Source: Chiridota heheva (Eukaryota; Echinodermata; Holothuroidea; Apodida; Chiridotidae). From it: a DNA stretch of 64,000 bases. A program made the translations under genes and the position numbers. Positions 44,862-47,022 of this stretch are shown here, one piece after another. The stretch's first letter is position 1. Every line of letters begins with the position of its first letter. The stretch is taken from the NCBI GenBank assembly GCA_020152595.1, contig JAIGNY010002998.1, forward strand, positions 186,001 through 250,000, read 5' to 3'. Under the pieces are notes generated by a model. It saw only the letters and a list, made by a program, of their open reading frames with translations, ran no database searches and was not told the origin of the DNA.

Positions 44862-44893
44862 CCATGGAGCTATCTCTGAGTTAATAGCTCCAT
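44862..44893. mobile_element. 32-bp palindromic micro-insertion, copy 1
   Basis: catggagctat pairs perfectly with atagctccatg around a ctctgagtta loop. The hairpin is bracketed by direct aacaaac on both sides (7-bp target-duplication-like). The same palindrome recurs at 46994. No coding capacity. Confidence 0.55.
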
Positions 44894-44894
44894 G

Positions 44895-45455
44895 AACAAA
44901 CATATGCACCATTGCAATGTAATAAATAACCACAATTGCAACATAAATACAGTACTTCACAGGTACAAAATGTTTGTTGCCAAGCACTGTCACAAACTAA
45001 TAATTAACAGCTAGGTTGACCATTTTTGTAAAGAAATGCAATAAATATATTAAACAAAATTCTAAAAGAAAAAGAAAACAGGTAAAACAATGTTACTTTC
45101 TTTACACCACTTGGTATATATGCCCAAGATGATGTATAGAATAACATTTCCATGCTATGTCTATCCCATGTACTTCATATACAGCATGCAAAAGAATACC
45201 ATACTGCCCTAACTTTCTGAAATCTTGAAGTTACTGAGAAAATCAAAGCCCAGCAAACTGACATGCCTTGACAACCTATATACACTTAATACTGCTTCAA
45301 GTTCATATTTACCTAGAAGAAAGCTAGTAGCAGACTATTGATTTATAGAGCAGAAAATAAAGACAATTGTCCCAGTTTGTATTTGTTAGGAAAGCACCAG
45401 CAACTCCCCATAGGATGGTGGGAACTTTTTTGTTTTTAGCATGTTTTTATATATA
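44895..45455. other. Unannotated AT-rich DNA
   Basis: No gene or repeat recognised. Confidence 0.45.
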
Positions 45456-45459
45456 AGAT

Positions 45460-45671
45460 GCATGTATGTATGTATGTATGTATGTATGTATGTATATATA
45501 TATATATATATATATATATATATATATATATATATATATATATATATATATATATATATATATATATATATATATATATATATATATATATATATATATT
45601 TATATATATTTATATATATATATATATATATATATATATATATTTATATATACATATATATATATATATAT
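45460..45671. repeat. (ATGT)n followed by (AT)n microsatellite
   Basis: About eight atgt units pass directly into about 180 bp of (AT)n with a few ttta interruptions. The frames are artefacts. Confidence 0.97.
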
Positions 45672-46150
45672 GGTCTCATTGAAGAGCATTTTTTGCCCAA
45701 ATATTTATATTTATTTATTTTTCCACCAGAAAAAAGTGAGATATGATTATAATCTCTGAAAGGTAATCAAGCAATGTTGCCCAGAGGCATGGGCATGATC
45801 TGCCTACCGAAAGTCAAAAGTGTGTTGTTTTTTTAAGAGGGGGAGGGAGGAGGATCATACTAAGATACAAACCAGAACATCAATGATGTTGAAGCTCAAC
45901 TTTCCCATTAAAATGTTCAAAAGAGTAGTAAAGATGATATCAAAGGAAGATGAAATGGGGAGTTGCCATTTTCAAGTCAAGTTTTGCATAAAAAATAAAT
46001 ATACTTTTCTGGTCTACCATCATTTAATAATATTTTATTAGAAGCAGTTTATTCAGTTCTTTGCAATATTCCCATTGATTATACTCTAACATAGTACATC
46101 CTTGTTTTCAATTAGTTTGTCTGAGGATGCGTCAGTCATATGATGTGAAA

Positions 46151-46175
46151 CCAAGGATGCACAACGCATCCTTGG
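46151..46175 (+). other. Hairpin in repeat I, copy 1
   Basis: ccaaggatgc-acaac-gcatccttgg: ten perfect pairs. Copy 2 has T-A in place of the terminal C-G pair, so pairing is kept. Confidence 0.8.
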
Positions 46176-46440
46176 TGAAACTAAACAATAAGCAAGGCTT
46201 TCACACATTTTTGTTTTATAAGGCCCCAATCCAAAATACACAAGTTATTTTGCATTAAAATGTTTAAATTCAGCTGGAGGCAGCTGATGTCAAAATGAAA
46301 GCTGTTTGGTGATTCAATTGACTCTTGTCTACACGTGTTACCAAAAAATAATAAATTATCTCCAGAAGAGGGGAAACCTATAAAAATTAGTAGGGGTTGT
46401 CCCTGGATTTGCAGAAAGTATACTTCATCCCCATCACAAC

Positions 46441-46660
46441 ACTTTTTGAGAGAAAACAATATCTAATTTTTTCATACTGACAATACTTATCTTAACTGGC
46501 CTGGCACTTTTCTTATTTTTGTTGAGTAAATGCAGTTTACTTTCCTTAATACTTTTTGAGAGAAAACAATATTTAAATCTTTCACACTGACAGTACTTGT
46601 CTTAACTGGCCTGGCACTTTTCTTATTTTTGTTGAGTAAATGCAGTTTACTTTCCTTAAT
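46441..46660 (+). repeat. 110-bp tandem duplication in repeat I, copy 1
   Basis: 46441-46550 and 46551-46660 are near identical (actttttgagagaaaacaat ... actttccttaat). The other copy of repeat I has a single unit at about 55411-55521, which identifies this as a later change. Confidence 0.93.
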
Positions 46661-46993
46661 AGAGGGAAAAACCCATGGAAACCCCAGGGTCTTTCTTAAT
46701 AGAATCCAAGAAAGTACACTTCAAGACCCTCCAGCAATAATTTGTATAAATAAAAATATTTTCATCATTTATAAGATAATTAACAAGGTATCTCTTACTA
46801 AAGTTGCATCTTCATTTTTATTGGTAAATTTTCTCAAATGAAGGATAATTCCTTCCTCCAACTTCTTAAACTTAAAAAGGATAGTTGTTTCATAAAGCAA
46901 TACGTTTTTTGGTCATTTGCTATACTTAAGATTGAAGAAACTTCAGGCTGCAAAAAAAACTTTAAAAGTTTGCAAATTTACTTTCCATTACAA

Positions 46994-47022
46994 CATGGAG
47001 CTATTTCGATTGAATAGCTCCA
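46994..47022. mobile_element. 29-bp palindromic micro-insertion, copy 2
   Basis: atggagctatt and aatagctccat pair perfectly around tcgattg. Direct repeats cattacaac and cattgcaac bracket it. Repeat I copy 2 at 55903 has a single gcattgcaac and no hairpin, so this is an insertion relative to its paralogue. Confidence 0.7.

Follow-up and report, generated by a model that had tools for sequence, protein, structure and literature searches.

The short hairpins dispersed through this genome are probably excision footprints of cut-and-paste transposons of the P superfamily, and not tiny transposons in their own right. This reading is favoured because the hairpins have distinct centres, because their common sequence ends at about 18 nt, because one-ended remnants exist and because a 17-nt stagger is known for P-type cleavage. 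Confidence is tempered because the target motif is partly common to the hAT superfamily and because its outer bases come from pooled strands. If the reading is right, hundreds of P-type excision junctions would be readable in one animal-like genome, outside Drosophila, and would record cut positions, end trimming, filler and target choice; this would also suggest that the unusual long stagger of P-element cleavage is an old trait held in common. It would further show how easily dispersed small palindromes that carry target duplications pass for minute MITEs.

Hairpins and duplicated targets in the window

The window analysed here is a stretch of 64 kb (34.6% GC; C2934:186001-250000) from a 1.1-Gb genome, which would be that of an animal to judge by its size, its repeats and the kinds of transposon in it. 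Its longest ORF, of 279 aa, lies within a tandem array, RVT_1 and RNase_H matches in it were weak and under the Pfam cut-offs, and an Rfam search of the window gave no match. Tandem arrays occupy 3935-7559 (96-bp unit, 38 copies), 21198-22266 (46-bp unit, 23 copies), 39293-39959 ((TA)n, 667 bp) and 49495-50212 (30-bp unit, 24 copies), and clusters of palindromic AGCTTGCAAGCTAGC-like repeats are found at 23261-23440 and about 44630-44785. The coordinates of the scars described below are given without strand.

The two hairpins that a first-pass annotation had singled out both exist, to within one base of where it had placed them, and have the 11-bp arm CATGGAGCTAT in common. Scar 1 (44863..44894, 32 bp), with the layout CATGGAGCTAT-10-ATAGCTCCATG, matches the end consensus CATGGAGCTATTAACT over 16 nt of its right arm and is bracketed, just as had been noticed, by direct copies of AACAAAC, the left at 44856..44862 and the right, an exact 7-bp match, at 44895..44901. 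Scar 2, CATGGAGCTATTTCGATTGAATAGCTCCATC (46994..47024, 31 bp; layout CATGGAGCTAT-9-ATAGCTCCATC), lies between the left duplication ATTACAA at 46987..46993 and the right duplication ATTGCAA at 47025..47031 (6/7 match). The flanks had previously been given as CATTACAAC and CATTGCAAC around a 29-bp insert; this is the same repeat, now read as the 7-bp pair ATTACAA/ATTGCAA. The paralogous segment at 55030-56560 aligns across the scar 2 region, is without the hairpin and holds one copy of the target, ATTGCAA at 55907..55913, so that the empty site proposed at first pass is borne out.

The paralogy itself involves a segment of ~1.3 kb in two diverged direct copies, at about 46096-47460 and 55060-56340, the first of which alone carries an internal 110-bp tandem duplication (46441-46661). 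A self-BLAST of the window, at the settings used, missed this paralogy between 46 and 55 kb, and a 30-mer of the paralogue gave 0 matches against viral_contigs.

Two kinds of scar that the first-pass annotation had missed lie in the same window. Scar 3, which belongs to another family, consists of CAAGGATGCACAACGCATCCTTG between two copies of GTGAAAC (46145..46181, insert 46152-46174), and its counterpart in the paralogue lies at 55111..55148 (insert 55118-55141). Since scar 3 is present in both paralogues, it is probably older than the duplication of its segment. Scar 4, CAGAGAGCTGCTACTTTCACAAAGTAACAGCTCCCTG (42299..42349, insert 42306-42342), has arms in the arrangement 17 + 3 + 17 with two mismatches, which would be exactly the form predicted for filled and joined P-type donor ends. 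Its flanks, CATACAT and CATACAC (6/7), are situated where an (ACAT)n array ends, and because they lie in this microsatellite the duplication of scar 4 is weak evidence.

The window was scanned by a rule that combined a terminal inverted repeat with a 7-bp flanking repeat, and 40 Markov-simulated windows served as the control. The simulated windows gave an average of 1.2 structures and a maximum of 4, none of them perfect. In the real window the same rule returned 10 structures, five in one tandem array (51789-51917) and five remaining; the two perfect ones are a single scar in its two paralogues (46152 and 55118), and the rule misses the exact hairpin at 44863, whose AACAAAC flank is dropped by its low-complexity filter. 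A second scan looked for CANRGA...TCYNTG in spans of 14-51 bp whose 7-bp flanking repeat had five or more matches; it returned four sites (42306, 44863, 46152 and 55118), where shifted comparisons predict 0.55, and scar 2 is not included in it because the last base of that scar is C. An imperfect palindrome, ATGTCACAAAACTTCAAATTTGTCACAT at 18046-18073, is likewise flanked by exact 7-bp repeats (AAATGTC); its start is not CANRG, and it could be due to chance.

Shared ends and variable centres across the genome

The first-pass annotation had proposed that copies be counted genome-wide, and they are many: the pattern ATGGAGCTATN{3,16}ATAGCTCCAT was found at 619 places, with 0 for the reversed-pattern control. 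The sample comprised the first 50 of the 619 in contig order (L056-L105) together with the two in the window. Nine of these 52 places have one common flank type, that of a larger repeat, and were counted once, giving 44 independent sites. The flanking match was 0.883 per base at 7 bp, as compared with 0.21-0.29 at 4-6 and 8-12 bp, and a duplication of 8 or 9 bp was rejected since the match per base is high at 7 bp only among the lengths compared (4-12 bp). A 7-bp duplication matching at 6-7 of its seven positions accompanies 36 of the 44 independent hairpins (23 sites identical over 7 bp and 13 at 6/7, with a poorer match at the other eight), which upholds the earlier view of insertions with a target-site duplication. 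When the right flanks were permuted 2000 times, a mean of 0.86 sites and a maximum of five reached 6-7/7. The poor duplications at eight of 44 hairpins, and at 10 of the 28 loci found with an 18-mer (see below), count against the excision reading, although old sites may well look like this. Chance was rejected as an explanation on the strength of the simulated windows, the flank permutation and the reversed-pattern control, which was 0 in every genome pattern search.

The duplicated 7-mer conforms to RTNNNAY and is mostly GTNNNAC (36 sites, counts not symmetrised). Pooling both strands, which of necessity makes the result symmetric, adds an outer T and A at the same 36 sites and gives TNNGTNNNACNNA. 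Because 7-bp duplications are coupled to a preferred target motif, the insertions are attributable to a sequence-specific transposase. A hairpin with a short duplication is also a possible product of repair, in which a staggered break is filled in with snap-back synthesis and no transposon takes part; however, ends common to hundreds of places, a duplication fixed at 7 bp and a preferred target together need a sequence-specific enzyme, and an origin of this sort is highly improbable. The suggestion made at first pass, that a hairpin had been captured during repair, comes nearer in that a repaired site is involved, but the hairpin would have been left by a larger transposon on its departure.

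The same hairpin arms are found at 52 microbial loci in genome_contigs and at three in viral_contigs. Flanking repeats of at least 7 bp were seen at 0 of these 55 loci, and repeats of 6 bp at two, and kinship with bacterial hairpins was rejected on this ground.

The ends shared by the hairpins extend up to about 18 nt, start with CANRGA and fit the CANRG form of P-superfamily termini (CATGG, CAAGG, CAGAG/CAGGG). Among the 88 arms of the independent sites, scored against an end consensus that is itself 18 nt long, the retained length is 16 nt in 26, 18 nt in 23 and 12 nt in 15. The arms are separated by 1-6 nt of filler in 33 of the 44 hairpins and overlap by 1 nt in seven.

A search with the 18-mer CATGGAGCTATTAACTGA, which placed no constraint on the sequence that follows, gave 1,019 matches, and 30 of these loci were used. 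Position 19 is A in 12, G in 11, T in six and C in one of the 30, and at positions 20-26 no base exceeds 16 of 30 loci, so that the common sequence stops at position 18. Two of the loci (L134 and L135) are tandem arrays and were excluded; six of the 28 that remain coincide with hairpins of the 619 set. A second 7-bp copy (6-7/7) follows within 45 bp of the 18-mer at 18 of the 28 loci, compared with 64 of 756 cross pairs. In three of the 28, all of them among these 18, only one end is present before the second duplication is reached, its length being 18 nt (L133), 19 nt (L132) and 20 nt (L127).

These remnants bear on whether the hairpin of 28-38 bp could itself be an ultra-short MITE, mobilised by a P-type transposase through its two ends. 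Such a unit would account for the number of copies, the 7-bp duplications, the target motif and the empty paralogous site, and likewise for the four hairpin sequences that occur twice each among the 44 independent sites and the 27 distinct sequences among 50 listed members of a second family. However, 40 of the 44 independent hairpins differ in sequence, chiefly at the central junction, the one-ended remnants exist, the apparent 43-bp family (below) goes back to a single site whose flanks were copied along with it, and two P transposase subunits pairing on ends that stand nearly back to back are hard to picture. MITEs and the bacterial REP/REPIN hairpins have a conserved full-length consensus. 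The hairpins described here are likewise short palindromes dispersed in many copies, but they are conserved at their ends only, with no single consensus through the middle; their terminal inverted repeats and duplication are MITE-like, and excision footprints have both too. A minimal mobile MITE, as favoured at first pass, is disfavoured because one conserved full-length sequence would be expected and was not found, and we regard it as unlikely. It is similarly doubtful that the scars remain substrates, with a P-type transposase recognising the two ends of ~17 nt and moving or re-cutting the hairpin; were this true, palindromes of 28-38 bp would be exceptionally small mobile units that propagate without internal sequence.

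When the loop was widened to 17-47 (37-67 bp between the outer arm ends), 188 places were found, again with 0 in the reversed control, and many of the places listed have a total of exactly 43 bp. Twenty of the 188, picked by length from those listed, were fetched (19 of 43 bp and one of 40). Each of the 19 fetched 43-mers has one or both flanks more than 60% identical, over 49 bp, to those of another member, the flanks reading catttgaattaaaa ... attaaactaacgac, and a 6-7/7 duplication is still visible at eight of the 20 places. A 43-bp mobile unit was rejected because the 19 hitch-hike with similar flanks; as judged from these sequences, the class apparently goes back to one old scar that was amplified as part of a larger repeat. 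The concern voiced at first pass, that the hairpins might always sit inside a larger repeat, applies to subsets only, namely the nine of 52 places with one flank type and the 19 of 19 fetched 43-mers.

Scars also occur within arrays. L136 and L137, with short units, and L134 and L135, with longer units, are minisatellites that grew from a scar together with the repeat beside it, in which head-to-tail units of the two recur with periods of about 32-35, 40 and 66 bp; such arrays suggest that target-site duplications seed tandem arrays. Two places from the wide-loop search, C368:354052 and C378:817679, likewise hold scars as minisatellites or neighbouring repeats.

The wide-loop class is also relevant to internal deletion, in which abortive gap repair after excision trims an element to its two tips. 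This would explain both the retained duplications and the variable centres, and PMC4168063 takes up incomplete gap repair in connection with P and Galileo. However, a continuous range of longer remnants would then be expected, whereas the 18-mer loci diverge right past position 18 and the 37-67 bp class is the smaller one (188 as against 619 places) and includes the prominent hitch-hiking 43-mer. One-ended remnants that stop at the duplication would also be left unexplained, and internal deletion is a rather improbable source of the hairpins.

Proposed excision by a P-type transposase, and related systems

P transposase cuts the non-transferred strand 17 bp inside the inverted repeats and so generates 17-nt 3' extensions (PMC7776569, in excerpt). 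Given extensions of this type, filled and joined donor ends would be inverted pieces of at most 17 nt between intact duplications. According to the excision reading preferred here, a transposon would insert and duplicate 7 bp of its target. Its transposase would later cut one strand at the outer border and the other about 17 nt further in, so that parts of the transposon ends would stay behind at the donor site as 17-nt 3' tails. The inverted tails would be filled and joined by end joining, with trimming or filler, and the resulting near-palindrome, about 28-38 bp long, would stand between the two 7-bp copies; where a tail was lost, a single end of ~18 nt would abut the second 7-bp copy. Scars formed in this way would be immobile by themselves, some being multiplied within larger repeats or as minisatellites. 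From the arm lengths we infer that the transposase here would cut with a stagger of ~17 nt.

In Drosophila P-element footprints the flanking duplications are kept with a near-palindrome of transposon ends between them, and the scars retain 14-18 nt of the P ends. The hairpins resemble these footprints in the retained duplications and in the near-palindrome of ends, and the 17-nt stagger, as the excerpted account has it, predicts the retained length. They differ in having duplications of 7 bp instead of 8 bp and other end sequences, and in being many fossil scars for which the parent was not found among elements of up to about 67 bp.

As described in excerpts of PMC3276498, the D. melanogaster elements include 1360 of the P superfamily, with a 7-bp duplication (GTTNAAC), the P element, with an 8-bp duplication (GTCCGGAC), and the hAT element hobo, also with 8 bp (GTNCGNAC). 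Galileo, of the P superfamily, has a 7-bp duplication (8 bp in three copies) reading GTATTAC or GTANTAC, and its target is a 15-bp palindrome (excerpts of PMC4168063 and PMC2775673). The 7-bp duplication and the GTNNNAC-type motif reported there for 1360 (Hoppel, ProtoP) and Galileo are thus shared with the hairpins; those are large elements, however, whereas mainly presumed scars are found here, and the ends CATGGAGCTATTAACTGA and CAGGGAGTTGGCATTAGA differ from theirs. The motif is not decisive for P because hobo also has a GT...AC motif, with 8 bp; the target motif alone cannot separate P from hAT, and the 7-bp size separates them better. Zebrafish Pdre2/THAP9 is alike in being a P-type transposase outside flies and in having a terminal repeat, CATACCTGTCAAC, that starts with CA, but has 8-bp duplications and another end sequence (PMC10983969, in excerpt). 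Among the matches listed in a search of titles in the open-licence literature, none described palindromic P-type scars genome-wide.

P-type genes and a second hairpin family

For the P-type domain PF21787, 46 matches were counted in this genome, as against none in 14 control genomes. Three ORFs of 624, 626 and 652 aa were examined (L142:2427-4298, minus strand; L143:2331-4208, minus strand; L144:1652-3607, plus strand), and this domain was present in all three, as TNP-like_RNaseH_N at E 5e-26 or better. A P-type HTH domain was found in two, in one of them under the Pfam cut-off, and the one ORF that was compared with the PDB matched P transposase 6p5a (E 3.4e-10). A larger relative with the same termini, as envisaged at first pass, did not emerge: in spite of the 619 hairpins, a search that covered hairpin-closed elements no longer than about 67 bp gave no complete transposon ending in CATGGAGCTAT, which weighs against the excision reading.

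All three ORFs also gave above-cut-off matches (E 2e-7 to 7e-6) to RAG1_imp_bd, which belongs to the N-terminal part of RAG1, together with zf-AD matches under cut-off in P-type ORFs. The presence of RAG1_imp_bd bears on the Aplysia element N-RAG-TP and on where the N terminus of RAG1 came from, as these are treated in PMC8355894.

At the C418 locus, an inverted repeat matching at 14/14 positions, CAGGGAGTTGGCAT, surrounds a P-type gene and spans 10,339 bp (C418:94013-104351). The outer flanks are GTATGAC on the left, which fits the target motif, and CAAAAAC on the right (3/7 match). CAGGGAGTTGGCAT is a candidate for the terminal repeats of this locus, with moderate confidence because the right flank is mismatched and because a direct-orientation control at C418, with a similar number of pairs, twice reached 13/14.

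Hairpins predicted from the candidate end CAGGGAGTTGG, with the pattern CAGGGAGTTGGN{0,16}CCAACTCCCTG, occur at 126 places (control 0), and the figures for this second family refer to 50 listed of the 126. These comprise 29 of the GGCAT type and 19 of the GGAAT subtype. Compared with the C418 5' end, 21 hairpins have an arm that matches for 11 nt at most, 19 of them being of the GGAAT subtype; the longest match is 14-17 nt in 13, 18 nt in six and 19-20 nt in 10. None of the 50 exceeds 20 nt, though the C418 element continues and the pattern permitted more. A strain on the 17-nt limit arises from the 10 of 50 listed arms that exceed 18 nt by 1-2 bases, some of whose last bases could equally be part of the opposite arm; three of the ten hairpins are clustered on one contig.

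The C418 3' end diverges after 14 nt (CATGTTC, the 5' type being CATTAGA). It is followed past 14 nt by 0 of the 50 listed hairpins, and the longer arms are of the 5' type. Because the 50 listed hairpins leave the 3' end by 14 nt, C418 is, on the evidence of these alignments, apparently a relative rather than the exact parent. Only 27 sequences are distinct among the 50 listed of 126, so some second-family members may be copies of one another.

One second-family scar is found at L097, with the flanks ATCAAAT and ATCAGAT. Scar-like palindromes with exact 7-bp repeats were also observed at L071, where CAGGGAGCTCTCCCTG lies between copies of GTATCAT, at L102, where ATTAAAT precedes CAGGGACCTG... 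(46 bp), and at L126, where ATCATAC precedes CAGAGATACTGT...CCCTG.
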